Shown here piece after piece: positions 29,982-39,241 of a stretch of 64,000 nt of DNA; position 1 is the first letter of the stretch; each line of letters starts with the position of its first letter. The notes under the pieces were generated by a model. That model was given only the letters and a program-made list of their open reading frames with translations, was not told the DNA's origin and made no database searches. Origin of the DNA: Borrelia anserina Es (GTDB lineage Bacteria; Spirochaetota; Spirochaetia; Borreliales; Borreliaceae); NCBI RefSeq assembly GCF_001936255.1, contig NZ_CP013704.1:310001-374000 (forward strand), in the 5' to 3' direction. The position numbers were made by a program, and so were the translations under genes.

Positions 29982-30728
29982 TTAATTATCGAAATAAGAG
30001 ACTTCAAAATCTATCTTATTATCAATACCTTCAACCGAATACAGATTAATCCTATTAACATTATTCTTATCTATAACTTTATTTCCAGAATCGACAAAAT
30101 AATAATAAATTCTACCCTTAGGAAGATCTTTAAGCTTAATAGTATATACACCTTTATAGGGTTCTTGTTCAACCAATCTATTTAAAAATGGATTAAAATT
30201 ATTAAAGTTGCCAGCTATTGTAACAATCTGTCCAGGACGACCTATATAAAAAATTTCAACTTCTCTACCATCAGAAGAATCAATTGGATTTCGTAAAGAC
30301 ACATAACTATGATCTACATCTATATCAATTATAGAGAATGGTATTAAATCTTTATTAAACACTACATTTCTATTATATTCATCATTTGTCCAAATACCAT
30401 CTACAACAAGCCTATACTGAATCCTACCAACTCCATGGGGAAGATTTACTTTTACAAAAAAAAGTCCATATTTGTTTTTCTTAAATAAGTACTTTTTTGT
30501 ATAACTATCAAAATCAAAAGCAGCAAAAATTTTCCTAATGCACTTATTAGAAGGATAAAACATAATGACTCTCTTAGAATCAACAATTGGCTCTAAACTA
30601 TCCTTTCTAGTTGAAACTTCCAAAAATTCATTTAAAGACAAATCAAAATTTTCAATCACATGAGTCTTTGAGCAAATATTACCAATACCCAAGAAAAAGA
30701 ATATAAAATAAAATAACCGTCTCAACAT
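29982..30728 (-). CDS. P26-like exported protein with two tandem CBM48/AMPK-type E-set domains
   Basis: The 248-residue protein has a signal peptide (LRRLFYFIFFFLGIGNI) and then two similar about 90-residue beta units. Unit 1 runs KRVIMFYPSN, KKYLFKKNKYGLFFVKVNLP, GRIQYRLVVDGIW; unit 2 runs VTIAGNFNNFNPFLNRL, GVYTIKLKDLPKGRIYYYF, GNKVIDKNN. Both match the glycogen-binding E-set pattern (ageFNnW..., YxYkfvvDG). Borrelia makes no glycogen that I know of, so the ligand is unclear. The start is ATG 30728; GTG 30737 or TTG 30725 are alternatives. The BB0336 (P26) name is from memory. Confidence 0.75.
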   Translation of the reverse strand: MLRRLFYFIFFFLGIGNICSKTHVIENFDLSLNEFLEVSTRKDSLEPIVDSKRVIMFYPSNKCIRKIFAAFDFDSYTKKYLFKKNKYGLFFVKVNLPHGVGRIQYRLVVDGIWTNDEYNRNVVFNKDLIPFSIIDIDVDHSYVSLRNPIDSSDGREVEIFYIGRPGQIVTIAGNFNNFNPFLNRLVEQEPYKGVYTIKLKDLPKGRIYYYFVDSGNKVIDKNNVNRINLYSVEGIDNKIDFEVSYFDN

Positions 30729-30796
30729 CCTTTCCACAATTTAATTGTAAAATTCAATAAACAATTCTTTTATCAAAATACTACACATTTGTCTAA

Positions 30797-32228: not shown

Positions 32229-32639
32229 TTATCTTTTTGAGAATTGAAAACTCTTCCTAGCCTTCTTCCTACCAGACTTTTTACGTTCAACTCTCCTTGG
32301 ATCTCTTGTTAAAAATCCATTGGATTTAAGAACTATCTTATACTCTTCATCAAGATCAAGAAGGGCTCTTGCAACACCATGCCTAATAGCACCAGCCTGA
32401 CCCGAAATACCCCCACCATAAACATTAATATAAAGGTCATACTTACCAAGAGTCTTTGTTAAAACCAGCGGAGATAGAGCAATCGTCCTAAACTTTTCAA
32501 GTTGAATATAAGAATCAAAATCCTTACCATTAATCTTAATATCACCCTTACCTTCTCTAATATAAATTCTAGCAACAGAAGACTTTCGCCTTCCCGTACC
32601 CATTCCTAAATTAATACCCTTAACACCTGACTTTGACAT
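32229..32639 (-). CDS. rpsI: 30S ribosomal protein S9
   Basis: The 136-residue protein has the S9 pattern [41 protein letters not shown], and the [18 protein letters not shown] region ending in the conserved basic QFSKR tail whose terminal Arg contacts P-site tRNA. It lies 10 bases after rplM, the standard rplM-rpsI pair. Confidence 0.98.
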
Positions 32640-33147: not shown

Positions 33148-33176
33148 ATTGTATTATTTGTAAGTTAATCTGTCAA
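33148..33176 (-). promoter_or_regulatory. Consensus sigma70 promoter for rplM-rpsI
   Basis: On the minus strand: TTGACA (33176-33171), a 17-base spacer, TACAAT (33153-33148). This is the best-scoring promoter by eye in the window. The leader would be about 42 bases. The -35 lies just 3 bases beyond the stop of the aminotransferase-like gene. Confidence 0.8.
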
Positions 33177-33178
33177 TA

Positions 33179-33964
33179 CTAACAGCCAAATTTATCCCAT
33201 AGCTTCAGAGAAACTTTTTTAAACCCATCTAAATCTCCCCTAGAAAATTTTAAAGGAACAAGAGAAGGAACATCAAAAACAGGACTAATTAAATAGCCAT
33301 TTTTTAAATACTCATTAAAAACTTCATCATGATACTTAGAACTATAAAGAGGAAACATATATCTACCAATAAGTCTAAAAATAGGCGTATCAAAAATATC
33401 AAAATTAATCTTTAAATTTTTCTCATAAGACAAAATCTTAGTAAGCATATGTCTGGCAACCGCCAAAGTCAAAGCATCAAAAAGATCTCTAAATTCGATT
33501 TTTCTAGACAAATTATCTACCACAGCGATGCTAATAGACATGCATCCAGGCATTGGAATATTTATAAGCATAGGATACCTAAAATTATCAAATCCGACCT
33601 TGAACTCATACACCCCCTGTTTTTCTTCCCAAGGATTACTAAAACAACTCTGACCTGTTAAAGACAATAAAAAATCTCTGGCATCTCTGTCAAACTTAAA
33701 AACATAAACAGAACCCGCCTCTTTAAAAAAAGAAAAAAAAATATTTTCAAACTGTTTCCTAAAAACAGAAGGATAAGAAGCCGTAAGACCTCTTGAAAAA
33801 GTCTGCTTAATAATAAGATTTAAACCTTGAACCCTATGCCCTAGAAAGTTCAGTCCACCATTTAAATATAAATCTAAATACCGGTTACCATTAATATCAT
33901 AAAGATAAAAAAACCTTGCTCTTCTAATTATTGGCAAACAACTAAATGGAGACTTGCTACACAT
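33179..33964 (-). CDS. Class III aminotransferase-like (GSA aminomutase-like) protein lacking the catalytic core
   Basis: The 261-residue protein resembles only the two ends of glutamate-1-semialdehyde aminomutase-type enzymes. Residues 17-43 (YLYDINGNRYLDLYLNGG, LGH) match the N-terminal YDVDGNxYID...LGH block, and the last 60 residues (FNEYLKNGYLISPVFD through DLDGFKKVS) match the C-terminal small domain (LxxGVYLAPS... EDI...). The middle, which should carry the PLP-binding lysine and about 160 more residues, is missing. It overlaps gatB by 8 bases and ends the gat operon. Enzyme activity is unlikely; the role is unknown. Confidence 0.7.
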   Translation of the reverse strand: MCSKSPFSCLPIIRRARFFYLYDINGNRYLDLYLNGGLNFLGHRVQGLNLIIKQTFSRGLTASYPSVFRKQFENIFFSFFKEAGSVYVFKFDRDARDFLLSLTGQSCFSNPWEEKQGVYEFKVGFDNFRYPMLINIPMPGCMSISIAVVDNLSRKIEFRDLFDALTLAVARHMLTKILSYEKNLKINFDIFDTPIFRLIGRYMFPLYSSKYHDEVFNEYLKNGYLISPVFDVPSLVPLKFSRGDLDGFKKVSLKLWDKFGC

Positions 33965-35414
33965 TCCTTAACTTGCTCATTAAAATTTCATTTGCAAGAA
34001 CGGGATTTGCCTTACCAGAAGTTTTACGCATGATCTGACCCATCATAAATTTAATTGAATGACTCTTACCTCTCTTATAAAGCGCTATGGATTTAGGATT
34101 TTCATTTAAAACTTCAAGCACAACTGATTCAATGAAAGATTCATCACTTATTTGCTCTAAATTTTTTTCATTAATAATAACAGAAGGAGAAACATTTCGA
34201 TCAAGCATTTCTAAAAATATTTCTTTCGCAATCTTACCACTTATCTTGCCATTAACAATGCATTCAACAAGTTCACCAACATATAATGGTGATAAATTAA
34301 AATCAAGTATACTTATTGCTCTATCATTTAGTACACTCAACACTTCAGATAGTACCCAATTTGCCACTCTCTTAGGTTCACTCGCACCCATAGCCGCTTC
34401 TTCAAAATATTTAACTAGATTTTTATCAGAAGTTAAAGTCACAACATCAAAATCACTAAGACCATATTGATCTTTTAATCTCATTCTCGCATCAAAAGGC
34501 AACTCTAACATTCTATCAAAATTTATGCTCTCAATATAAGCATCATCAAGCTCGATTAAAGGCAAATCAGGATCCCTCATATAACGATAATCAATTATCG
34601 TTTCTTTACTCCTTTGCAGTACTGTAATACCTCTTTTATCATCAAAGCCCATTGTATGCTTACCCACACTCTCAAAAGTTTTTCTGTGTAAAATCCACTC
34701 TTCTTTTTGCCTTGACTCTTCATAATCAATTGCCAACCTCACTGATTTAAAAGAATTTAAATTTTTTATCTCAGAAATAGGAGTTTTATACTCAATATCG
34801 TTTTCGTTAATAAGTAAATTAACATTAACATCACAACGAAATGACCCGTTTTCCATATTACAATCAGACAAATCAAGATATCTGAAAATTTCTCTTAAAG
34901 CACTCAAATAAGCTATAGCTTCTTCTCCACTATTAATATCTGGTTTTGAGACAATCTCTAGCAATGGTGCACCTGCACGATTAAAATCAATATAACTTTG
35001 ATTCTCACTCTCAAGCAAATGCAAGCTCTTGCCAGAATCTTCTTCCATATGTATCCTATCAATATTAATTTTTTTTAAACCTGAACTAATTTCAATTAAG
35101 ATGAACCCATTTTCACAAATTGGCTCATCATTTTGTGATATTTGATATCCCTTAGGTAAATCAGGATAAGCATAATGCTTTCTATCAAACTTAACAATAT
35201 TTCTAATCTTAGAATTAGTAGCATGCCCAGCCAAAATCGCACTAATAATAAGTTCTTTATTTACACTGGGCAATGCTCCAGGAAGCCCAAGACATATCGG
35301 ACACGTACGAGAATTTGGAATTCCACCAAAATCATTCTTACATCCGCAAAAAGCTTTAGTCTTTAATCCCAATTGCACATGCACTTCCAAACCAACAAGC
35401 AATTTATATTCCAT
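33957..35414 (-). CDS. gatB: Aspartyl/glutamyl-tRNA amidotransferase subunit B
   Basis: GatB is the kinase-like subunit that activates mischarged Glu-tRNA(Gln) or Asp-tRNA(Asn). The 485-residue protein shows VGLEVHVQLGLKTKAFCGC, a zinc-site pair in CGCKNDF and CPICLG, ALPSVNKELI, KHYAYPDLPKGYQISQ, RIHMEEDSGKS, DFNRAGAPLLEIV, and a C-terminal YqeY-like domain ending with FMMGQIMRKTSGKANP. It overlaps gatA by 11 bases and the next gene by 8. Confidence 0.97.
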   Translation of the reverse strand: MEYKLLVGLEVHVQLGLKTKAFCGCKNDFGGIPNSRTCPICLGLPGALPSVNKELIISAILAGHATNSKIRNIVKFDRKHYAYPDLPKGYQISQNDEPICENGFILIEISSGLKKINIDRIHMEEDSGKSLHLLESENQSYIDFNRAGAPLLEIVSKPDINSGEEAIAYLSALREIFRYLDLSDCNMENGSFRCDVNVNLLINENDIEYKTPISEIKNLNSFKSVRLAIDYEESRQKEEWILHRKTFESVGKHTMGFDDKRGITVLQRSKETIIDYRYMRDPDLPLIELDDAYIESINFDRMLELPFDARMRLKDQYGLSDFDVVTLTSDKNLVKYFEEAAMGASEPKRVANWVLSEVLSVLNDRAISILDFNLSPLYVGELVECIVNGKISGKIAKEIFLEMLDRNVSPSVIINEKNLEQISDESFIESVVLEVLNENPKSIALYKRGKSHSIKFMMGQIMRKTSGKANPVLANEILMSKLRNV

Positions 35415-36849
35415 TTACTCCCAATTCCTCTATTACATTTTTCACAAAATTTAAAAGCTCAAAATCTCTCTTAAATTGACCAATTATCTGCATACCAATA
35501 GGTAAGCCCCTATCATCTTTAGCAAAGGGAATAGAAAGTGCAGGGACTCCAATAAGATTAGCAATCACAGTACATAAATCAGAATAATACATTTTTATAG
35601 GATCATCAAAATTCTCACCAATTTTAAAAGGTTTCACAAAACTTGTAGGAGTAATAATATATGAACAACTACTAAAAATTTCATTGAACTTTGGAATTAA
35701 CACATTTTCAATAATCTTGCAAGCTTTTGCATAATATTGCAAATCATAACCTTCTGAGCACAAATAATTACCAAGCACAATACGTCTTTTCACTTCTTCT
35801 CTTAAAAATAAACTCCTATGCTTACAGTAAAAATCATTAAGACTTAATTCATCATTCAACCTTTTTCCATAATGAAGACAAGTATAACGAGCAAGGTTAG
35901 AAGCAGCCTCAACTGGAGATACTGAATAGTAAAGGGAAAGTACAAAATTAACTGCCTCTATTGAAACTTCATGTATTTCAACTCCTCTGCTTAAAAGTTC
36001 AGATTTAAATCTAGAAAAATTGCAGGCAACCTCTCTTTCCATCAAATCCTCACTAAGTTCTTTAATTACAGCCACTTTGATCCCTGATAAAGGCTTACTC
36101 AACAATGGATAAGGTTCTTGGATAATATCTACGCTAGTAGAATCCATTCTGTCAATTCCACAAGTATATTTTAATATTAAAGCCACGTCATCAATAGAAT
36201 TAGCAAAAAATCCTATTTGATCAAGAGAAGACACATATGATGCAAGTCCATAACGAGATAAACCTCCATAAGAAGGTTTAAAGCCAATCAAACCTGAAAA
36301 GGAAGCAGGAAGTCTAACAGACCCTCCAGTATCGCTACCAAGTGCAAAAGGAGCCTGATTACCAGCAACAACAGCTCCTGAACCACCAGAACTACCACCT
36401 ACAACATACTCTTTGTTTAAAGGATTAAGAGTAGCACCATAATAAGAAAATTCACAAGAAGATCCCATTGCAAACTCATCCATATTAGTTCTACCAATTA
36501 AAATTGCACCGTTATCTTTAAGTCTCTTAATAACAGTTGCATCATAAGGAGAAACATATCCTTGCAAAAGCTCAGATGCACAAGTTAAGCTTTTATTCTT
36601 AATAGAAATATTATCCTTAACAGCAATGGGCATACCAATCAAAGGCAAATTTTGTTCTTTACCTTTACCTAAAAGCTCATCATATTCTTTTGCCAATTCT
36701 AACGCGTCATCAAAAAACTCAATATATCCATTAATATCTTTATTGACTTCGTAACGCTCTTTATAAAAGAGAATAATATCATAAATCTTGCAGCTTCGAG
36801 TCAATATTAATTCTCTAAGTTTTATTAAACTTAAACCTCTTAAATCCAA
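35404..36849 (-). CDS. gatA: Aspartyl/glutamyl-tRNA amidotransferase subunit A
   Basis: GatA is the glutaminase (amidase) subunit. The 481 residues carry the Lys-Ser-Ser triad in IAVKDN, GGSSGGSGAVVAG and DTGGSVRLPAS, plus GYSPSYG-like FKPSYGGLSRYGLASYVSSLDQIG. I choose TTG 36849 as start: a perfect AGGAGG lies 9 bases upstream and the protein then has the normal length. The frame is open 28 codons further, but that part overlaps gatC and has no ribosome site. Confidence 0.95.
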   Translation of the reverse strand: MDLRGLSLIKLRELILTRSCKIYDIILFYKERYEVNKDINGYIEFFDDALELAKEYDELLGKGKEQNLPLIGMPIAVKDNISIKNKSLTCASELLQGYVSPYDATVIKRLKDNGAILIGRTNMDEFAMGSSCEFSYYGATLNPLNKEYVVGGSSGGSGAVVAGNQAPFALGSDTGGSVRLPASFSGLIGFKPSYGGLSRYGLASYVSSLDQIGFFANSIDDVALILKYTCGIDRMDSTSVDIIQEPYPLLSKPLSGIKVAVIKELSEDLMEREVACNFSRFKSELLSRGVEIHEVSIEAVNFVLSLYYSVSPVEAASNLARYTCLHYGKRLNDELSLNDFYCKHRSLFLREEVKRRIVLGNYLCSEGYDLQYYAKACKIIENVLIPKFNEIFSSCSYIITPTSFVKPFKIGENFDDPIKMYYSDLCTVIANLIGVPALSIPFAKDDRGLPIGMQIIGQFKRDFELLNFVKNVIEELGVNGI

Positions 36850-36862
36850 CTCAATACCCCTC

Positions 36863-37138
36863 CTAATCAAGTACTCTAGGTGATGAAAAGTAACCATCCA
36901 CAAATACATCACTAAAATTCTTGATAGACTCAATAGTCAAAGAAGGTAAAATCTCATCGTTCCTTAAAGTAGAAAGTTTACATGTTTTTCGTTGAAATCC
37001 ATCTTTTACTTTAAATTCAGCAATTTTATTTAACATATCAATGATCTTTTCAAATTTCATGACAAACTTCTGTTTTTCACTATTACCTAATCTTAATAAA
37101 CTTAACTTCAAACTATCTTCTAAATGAATATCTATCAA
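36863..37138 (-). CDS. gatC: Aspartyl/glutamyl-tRNA amidotransferase subunit C
   Basis: GatC clamps GatA to GatB. The 91-residue protein has the family layout: a helical N-terminal half (LKLSLLRLGNSEKQKFVMKF, EKIIDMLNKIAEF) and an extended tail with LRNDEILPSL and the terminal YFSSPRVLD that resembles the usual FxVPRVxE end. It sits 9 bases after pcrA and 13 bases before gatA. Confidence 0.92.
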   Translation of the reverse strand: MIDIHLEDSLKLSLLRLGNSEKQKFVMKFEKIIDMLNKIAEFKVKDGFQRKTCKLSTLRNDEILPSLTIESIKNFSDVFVDGYFSSPRVLD

Positions 37139-37147
37139 ATTTCACCT

Positions 37148-39241
37148 CTAAATCTTAGAAAGTCCTTTAATATAGTTCGAGCTTAAAATAGCTTTCCTTC
37201 CATTCTTTAGACTAATTTTAATAAATTGCTCGCTATTTTGATACCACTTATCAATCACTACACCATTTTCACCATTATAAGTTATATAATCCCCAATGTT
37301 AAAGCTTTTATTAACACTTCCTGAAAAAAAATATTTGAAATTATTTTTTAAATATTCCGGAACAAAAACAATATCATAATTGTCTTTGGCAATATCTTGA
37401 AAAAAGACTGACATAGCCGTATTCCTCAGCATACCTCCAAAAAACCTCTGCAAATTCATCGTAACAATAAGTTCAAATTTAGCCCTAGTAATAGCAACAT
37501 AAAAAAGCCTTCTTTCCTCTTCAAGTCTTTCCTGGGTCAATTCCTCAATCTCAGCAGGTAATAAACCTTTCTCAAGCCCAGATATTATTACTCTATCAAA
37601 CTCAAGTCCTTTAACTCCATGAATTGAAGAAAGGAGTATGCTAGACTTAGAATCTCCATGAATTAAAGGTGAAAGAGATGAATTTTCCAAAAATATCACA
37701 AGCCCTTCAAAACTGCCTGAGTATTCAACCCCACTACTAATAAGTTCATCAATATTTCTAGATTTTTCATCTTTATCAAATTTTTGATAATAAGCCCAAA
37801 ATCCAGATTTAATTACAACATCCTTAATAAATTCAGATAAATTTATATAAGAAGCTCTTTTTATATTCTCTTCTAGATCATCATATAAATTTAAAAAAGC
37901 AACAAGAGAATCTTTTGCTTTACCTTTAAGACCCTCAACAACTCTTCTACTTGCAAGAATTAAATCAAGATTGACACTAAGATCATTTAACATTGCAATT
38001 ATCTTATCCGTAGTAGTTTTCCCAATTCCCCTAGCAGGCTTATTTATGACTCTTAAGAAAGAAATTTTATCTTTTTTATTTACAAAAAGTCTTAATAAAG
38101 AAATTATATCTTTAATCTCCTCTCTTTCATAAAATCTAATTGAACCTAATACTTTATGTGGAATGTTGTGTTTTAAAAAAGATTTTTCAAACTGCAAAGA
38201 TTGATGATTAAATCTGTAAAGGATCGCTGTCTCAAGTTCATCTTCAAGAAGGAAGTTAGAAAAATAGTCAGCTTCCTCTATAGGATTTTGGAAGACAAAC
38301 AATTTCATCTTCCTTCCTATCTTGTTCTTCGTAATTATCAACTTTTTATACCTATTTCTATTTTTTGAAATAACATCATTTGCAACATTAACAATACTTA
38401 AACTGGAACGATAATTTTGTACCAAAAAATATTTAGATACATTACTAAATACTTTTTCAAATTCAAGAATATTTTCAACTCTAGCCCCTCTGAAAGAATA
38501 GATAGACTGATCCTCATCTCCTACTACTATAAAATGCATATCCTTGCAATAAAGCTCTTTTAAAAATAAAAATTGTGAATAATTAGTATCTTGGTATTCA
38601 TCTACAAAAATGGCTTTAAACTTTTTCTGAACTTTCATCTTGATATCTTGACAACTTTTTAACATCAATACAGCTTTAAGAATAAGATCAGCAAAATCAA
38701 AAGCATTGTTTCTAGATTTCTCTTGCTCGTAAAACTTAATATCTCCATGGATCTTCTCATCAAGATTACAATAACAATCTAAAAGGCAATTTTCTTTATG
38801 CTTAAGTATAAAAGACGCCACATGCTTTGCAAGCTCAATTGTTGAAGCAAGCCCAATTTGTTTAATAAATCTAACAACATCATTAATATCCCAAATTGTA
38901 AAATTCGAATCATAATCTTTATCAAATTCTTTAAAGTAAAGCCTTAAAAGCCAAACACCAAAAGAATGAAAGGTCTGAATATGTAGGGTTTTATTAAAAT
39001 CAAAAAGATAATTTAGTCTCAAATTCATCTCATTTGCAGCTTTATTTGTAAATGTTAAAGCAAGAATCTCTTCTGGCCTCAAGTTCATTTCCTTTATTAA
39101 ATAAGCTATTTTAGCCGTTATAACCCTTGTTTTACCACTGCCTGGACCTGCCAAAACAAGAATGGGATTCTTAGTATCATCTAAAACAACTTTTTTCTGA
39201 TCATAATTTAAACTAAAGATAAATTTTTCTATTCTATCCAT
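37148..39241 (-). CDS. pcrA: UvrD/PcrA-type superfamily 1 DNA helicase
   Basis: The 697-residue 3'-5' helicase has Q-motif NYDQKKVV, Walker A AGPGSGKTRVI, motif Ia ALTFTNKAANEM, motif II VDEYQDTNYSQ, motif III GDEDQSIYSFRGA, motif IV QNYRSS, motif V SSIHGVKGLEFDRVI and motif VI EERRLFYVAITRAK. Its C-terminal Tudor-like segment (FNIGDYITYNGENGVVIDKW) is typical of PcrA. It functions in nucleotide excision repair and replication-fork clearance. The ATG shares one base with the stop of the preceding gene (TAATG). Confidence 0.95.
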   Translation of the reverse strand: MDRIEKFIFSLNYDQKKVVLDDTKNPILVLAGPGSGKTRVITAKIAYLIKEMNLRPEEILALTFTNKAANEMNLRLNYLFDFNKTLHIQTFHSFGVWLLRLYFKEFDKDYDSNFTIWDINDVVRFIKQIGLASTIELAKHVASFILKHKENCLLDCYCNLDEKIHGDIKFYEQEKSRNNAFDFADLILKAVLMLKSCQDIKMKVQKKFKAIFVDEYQDTNYSQFLFLKELYCKDMHFIVVGDEDQSIYSFRGARVENILEFEKVFSNVSKYFLVQNYRSSLSIVNVANDVISKNRNRYKKLIITKNKIGRKMKLFVFQNPIEEADYFSNFLLEDELETAILYRFNHQSLQFEKSFLKHNIPHKVLGSIRFYEREEIKDIISLLRLFVNKKDKISFLRVINKPARGIGKTTTDKIIAMLNDLSVNLDLILASRRVVEGLKGKAKDSLVAFLNLYDDLEENIKRASYINLSEFIKDVVIKSGFWAYYQKFDKDEKSRNIDELISSGVEYSGSFEGLVIFLENSSLSPLIHGDSKSSILLSSIHGVKGLEFDRVIISGLEKGLLPAEIEELTQERLEEERRLFYVAITRAKFELIVTMNLQRFFGGMLRNTAMSVFFQDIAKDNYDIVFVPEYLKNNFKYFFSGSVNKSFNIGDYITYNGENGVVIDKWYQNSEQFIKISLKNGRKAILSSNYIKGLSKI

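Follow-up and report, generated by a model that had tools for sequence, protein, structure and literature searches.

GSA aminomutase (HemL; TIGR00713, PF00202 class III aminotransferases) is a PLP enzyme of the heme pathway. Non-catalytic relatives of PLP enzymes also exist, among them SPTLC1 of serine palmitoyltransferase, a fold-type I PLP paralogue that has kept the full domain and pairs with an active paralogue. To our knowledge, few PLP enzymes survive as something else after losing their entire cofactor core. We analysed a stretch of 64,000 nucleotides of Borrelia anserina Es (contig NZ_CP013704.1, positions 310,001 to 374,000; hereafter the window), and within it an open reading frame with the working label q (33179-33964, minus strand), which encodes 261 amino acids from an ATG start.

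HemL is the best profile match of q, and the two proteins share an N-terminal block and a C-terminal small domain in collinear order. Unlike HemL, q is about 150 residues shorter, lacks the phosphate-binding SGT, YHGH, DEV and the PLP lysine, carries new conserved basic residues and occurs in organisms without HemL. Like SPTLC1, q appears from its sequence to have kept the fold of a PLP enzyme without the PLP site; unlike SPTLC1, q has a deleted PLP core, and no active class III paralogue exists for it in Borrelia (no PF00202 enzyme was found in the window genome). With somewhat more confidence than doubt, we favour the reading that q is a PLP-independent pseudoenzyme derived from GSA aminomutase (class III, fold type I), which kept the scaffold, lost the PLP core and acts by binding.

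Homology of q to GSA aminomutase

Searches with the single q sequence gave a trace of PF00202 in Pfam (E 0.02, residues 12-73) and, in the PDB, a GSAM match (E 1e-4) over residues 10-68, with scores below the curated cut-offs (14 bits vs 30.5 for PF00202 and 15.3 vs 527 for hemL). A profile of 31 q-family sequences was decisive for the N-terminal block, where it matched GSAMs in the PDB (E 5e-11). Moreover, when only the C-terminal 63 positions were used as a profile, the PDB yielded just two entries at E up to 10, both of them GSAMs and both collinear in position; we regard this pair of C-terminal-only matches as telling, although on its own either match is weak (E 0.39 and 1.5). HMM-HMM comparison (hhalign) of the q family with spirochaete HemL gave a probability of 98% (E 1e-14), with both ends aligned and a long gap across the PLP core, while comparison with other class III enzymes gave 96% (3e-9). 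The closest curated family is TIGR00713 (hemL), matched by 15 of the 31 members (best 1.8e-11), and no curated model for the q family itself was found in Pfam or NCBIfam. In a tree of the shared columns, q, HemL and the remaining class III enzymes fall into three distinct clades, with modest support (0.63) for that of q.

By its PDB and HemL profile matches, the retained N-terminal block (RAR, LYD-NGNRYLDL, GG..LGH, K53/R58), together with the first helix of the former PLP domain, spans residues 10-105 (33650..33937, minus strand). The retained C-terminal small domain (F.eyLknGylisP...P.lvPlkfs.Gdl) was delimited by the C-terminal-only profile and hhalign at residues 195-250 (33215..33382, minus strand). 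Structural residues common to q and HemL are D31, G37, G42, G59 and P228. Between the two parts, hhalign places most of the missing PLP-binding core (YHGH, DEV, PLP lysine) approximately at residues ~104-137 (33554..33652, minus strand), the register of the q-HemL alignment through the middle (q residues ~105-190) being uncertain. In the HMM-HMM alignment with HemL, the phosphate-loop NSGTEA becomes KFDRDA in the window q, the otherwise invariant SGT is not kept by q, and nothing in q corresponds to the YHGH, DEV and GK(I/V)IGGG segments. The q family has no conserved lysine other than K53 in the N-terminal domain. These profile comparisons show q to be homologous to GSA aminomutase at both ends, with its PLP-binding motifs gone. 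A sequence-only reading of the window had proposed just this, that both terminal parts are kept and the PLP lysine region is deleted, and an intact PLP lysine, sought by hhalign against HemL, was not found. AlphaFold2, run on q and two relatives, gave a pLDDT of 32, and the fold given here is the one suggested by sequence profiles.

The middle third of q, which lacks a firm alignment, leaves room for a different cofactor or active site, and RPF/RPW and P.LPFPG motifs are conserved there in many members; these features would suit a minimal enzyme that is still catalytic through a remodelled middle segment. The middle is, however, the least conserved part of the protein, every PLP-site motif is lost and K53 is the sole conserved lysine, and we consider such an enzyme very improbable. 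A role for q in tetrapyrrole synthesis is also unlikely, because a HemL match is absent in Borrelia and in several other q-positive genomes.

Longer GSAM-like proteins occur in other classes of the phylum (L072:5146-6312, minus strand, and L071:1-877, minus strand; families f24 and f42). The L072 protein has NSSIEAS where NSGTEA is expected, and at the GKxxGGG position the two proteins read FGSYLSSG or FGSWLTGG, which would be consistent with a replaced PLP lysine. They represent a possible second, less reduced pseudoenzyme.

Distribution and selective constraint

We searched for q in 393 genomes of the phylum by protein search and by profile search, and counted as q-positive those with E at most about 1e-25, plus one genome (G126) with a uvrD-linked copy. 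Among 214 sampled genomes of the class Spirochaetia, 178 were confidently positive, 4 weak and 32 negative. The family is single-copy and short (median 280 aa) and is found in genomes from the ~0.9-Mb Borreliaceae upward; a search of plasmids with q gave no match. An intact gene is present in every one of the 36 Borreliaceae and in about 140 further genomes, including a 1.14-Mb single-contig genome (G056). The loss of the PLP core is common to the class and is therefore old.

Between Borreliaceae, dN/dS of q is 0.12-0.21, compared with 0.07-0.16 for gatB and 0.04-0.29 for rplM and rpsI, showing that q is under purifying selection in this family, much like its housekeeping neighbours. The truncation of q relative to HemL could be taken as the mark of a decaying pseudogene or an annotation artefact; class-wide conservation together with the dN/dS values refutes this and therefore identifies q as a functional gene, leaving decay with next to no probability. 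Near class-wide conservation probably reflects an important non-enzymatic job. The class includes major pathogens, and q is retained in almost all of its members, even in genomes near 1 Mb. Finding its role would establish a conserved function of spirochaetes.

Outside the class, GatB is common and full q was not found save for possible members such as a 280-aa protein with RRAR and LKN motifs (L070:5941-6783, plus strand; genome G010, family f30). Judged by these motifs, it may be a true member of the q family, and the origin of q may predate the class.

A flagellar link was considered and rejected: many flagellin-less f11 genomes lack q, yet it is kept in other flagellin-less genomes of f11 and f8. 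In a large set of f11 genomes (G224, G234 and others) flagellin, GatB and q are all missing, and six others (G221, G280, G325, G327, G357 and G386) keep q while flagellin and GatB are missing.

Gene neighbourhood and candidate partners

In the window, a rodZ-like gene, uvrD, gatC, gatA, gatB, q, rplM and rpsI follow one another on the minus strand, and eno then lies on the plus strand. The uvrD gene (PcrA-like helicase; 37148..39241, minus strand), which directly precedes q in families without the gatCAB insertion, is here followed by gatC (36863..37138, minus strand), gatA (listed at 35404..36933, minus strand, with a TTG start) and gatB (33957..35414, minus strand). Relatives suggest that the true start of gatA lies ~80 nt further in, just after gatC. 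As first noted from the sequence, q and gatB overlap by 8 nt (33957..33964, minus strand), in ATGTGTAG, which holds both the q ATG and the gatB TAG. Downstream of q lie rplM (L13; 32650..33099, minus strand) and rpsI (S9; 32229..32639, minus strand). A promoter-like site, TTGACA-17-TACAAT (33148..33176, minus strand), an 11/12 match to consensus alone, begins two bases past the q stop, suggesting that rplM-rpsI may have their own promoter and that q would be last in the gatCAB transcript.

We read 130 q loci, comprising 32 from Borreliaceae and 98 others. The order gatB-q-rplM occurs in 32/32 Borreliaceae loci. Directly upstream of q in the remaining 98 lie uvrD (34 loci), gatB (23), other genes (40) or a contig end (1), and all 23 of these gatB-q loci belong to one family, f3, probably the Treponemataceae. 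Across other families, the cluster reads rimO-uvrD-q-[C9]-rplM-rpsI-recX, with gene names assigned by sequence reading and C9 denoting a small membrane protein described below. Two f3 loci (L142 and L150) still have the order uvrD-gat genes-gatB-q, so the shared ancestor of f3 and Borreliaceae probably acquired gatCAB at a site between uvrD and q. The tie between gatB and q in Borrelia is an operon arrangement, with gatCAB lying between uvrD and q in Borreliaceae and f3.

It had been proposed from the sequence that q, as a former enzyme, became an accessory factor of GatCAB or Glu-tRNA. The first half of this proposal is supported, in that q descends from a GSA-aminomutase-like enzyme and lacks a PLP site; the second half, as a conserved function, is not supported. 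A pseudoenzyme bound to GatB or Glu-tRNA(Gln), where it assists amidation or sets its timing, would agree with the adjacency of gatB in every Borreliaceae locus and the 23 f3 loci, with the overlap in the window and with basic residues in q that could bind tRNA. We mapped GatB via PF02934 in the same genomes as q: 155 class genomes carry both, 23 carry q without GatB, 1 carries GatB without q and 31 carry neither. Thus 31 of the 32 q-negative class genomes also lack GatB, and q is lost almost only where GatCAB is already gone; these losses amount to about two or three events, however, and cannot carry the argument. The 23 genomes with q and without GatB are spread over f4 (8), f11 (6), f9 (3), f12 (2), f18 (2), f3 (1) and f7 (1), the single cases in f3 and f7 being possible assembly gaps. 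They show that q does not need GatCAB. A dependence on it, which the q-negative genomes without GatB had seemed to support, was rejected on these 23 genomes. Conversely, GatB is used without q by Brachyspira-like and other classes. Linkage of q to gatCAB is kept in Borreliaceae and many f3 genomes, whereas several f3 genomes carry q apart from gatB. Outside Borreliaceae and one related family, q directly follows uvrD without gatCAB. As a conserved function, an accessory role is unsupported, and we judge it unlikely.

The presumably older neighbourhood could point instead to UvrD, with q made alongside the helicase and modulating its DNA work until the gatCAB insertion parted them. The upstream uvrD gene in the 34 loci spans many families and often overlaps q by 4-20 nt, and q is positively charged overall, as would suit such a partner. 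In f3 and Borreliaceae, however, q stayed with gatB or moved off from uvrD, and the uvrD cluster also contains unrelated housekeeping genes (rimO, lolA- and rodZ-like genes, recX), which makes the linkage weak evidence. We give this partnership a slightly lower probability than the accessory role in amidation.

The most frequent neighbour of q outside Borreliaceae is C9, a protein of ~97 aa with the motif aFLAI.LWSkTRD.aWm (L053:5007-5306, minus strand; L033:6735-7040, plus strand; L177:4837-5196, plus strand; and 58 further loci). Its sequence reads as three transmembrane segments, and no convincing Pfam family was found for it. C9 lies directly downstream of q in 61 of the 98 non-Borreliaceae loci, and in 26 loci it stands beside q where q adjoins neither gatB nor uvrD. 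We tentatively raise the possibility of a membrane-linked complex in which q is the cytoplasmic subunit together with C9, a reading compatible with the binding pseudoenzyme that we favour and naming a specific partner for it. Borreliaceae lack C9, although the same C9 model finds the gene in 26 of 80 other genomes. It is also missing in each of the 36 f11 genomes tested, q-positive ones included, and is located away from q in several genomes. As an obligate or universal partner of q, C9 is rejected on this distribution. In f3 genomes an ASCH-domain protein (PF04266) is often the second gene downstream of q, after C9 (L171:3205-3663, minus strand, and 13 other f3 loci).

Basic residues, mode of action and naming

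The q family combines its reduced scaffold with conserved basic positions, several of which differ from HemL. R15, R17, R28, K53 and R58 are at least 95% basic in the family; specifically, R17 is conserved at 97% where HemL has K/E, R28 at 95% where HemL has E/D and others, and K53 at 95% vs 30% in HemL, while R58 is 95% basic. The net charge of the window q is +9.

We hypothesize that the binding pseudoenzyme arose when the scaffold of the N-terminal segment and C-terminal small domain was kept and the PLP-binding core lost, with R17, R28, K53 and R58 as conserved basic residues probably gained in the q lineage. The protein would then work through binding rather than catalysis. The conserved basic face suggests an anionic partner, and candidates include nucleic acid, a nucleotide, a lipid headgroup or an acidic protein. 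On the strength of conservation, R15, R17, R28, K53 and R58 may hold an anionic ligand, nucleic acid or a partner protein. Outside Borreliaceae, q probably acts in most lineages with the C9 encoded just downstream. A more specific outcome is conceivable but doubtful, namely that a heme-pathway PLP enzyme minus its cofactor domain turned into a factor dedicated to binding nucleic acid or tRNA, which the Lyme and apparently also the syphilis spirochaetes retained through extreme genome reduction. Within the family, members with GatCAB, uvrD linkage or C9 can readily be compared with members lacking them.

The window is part of a Borrelia chromosome; among named relatives, B. recurrentis is nearest (80% identity), followed by Borrelia sp. 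BU AG58 (76%). Published tags give BB0337 as enolase and BB0344 as UvrD (PMC5333916), and by counting along eno-rpsI-rplM-q-gatB-gatA-gatC-uvrD we infer that q corresponds to BB0340. This gene has been labelled a methionine sulfoxide (or disulfide) reductase (PMC3147059, PMC5013056); a literature search found no functional study of q, BB0340 being mentioned merely as a sulfoxide reductase. Given the tag assignment by gene order, the label looks mistaken, because the window genome has no match to the PMSR domain (PF01625) and q is GSAM-like, its own Pfam match being the PF00202 trace; the analysis suggests that the literature label be corrected. Elsewhere in the window, a 251-aa protein (29982-30737, minus strand) carries a glycogen-recognition (AMPK1_CBM) domain (E 6.5e-7), here in Borrelia.
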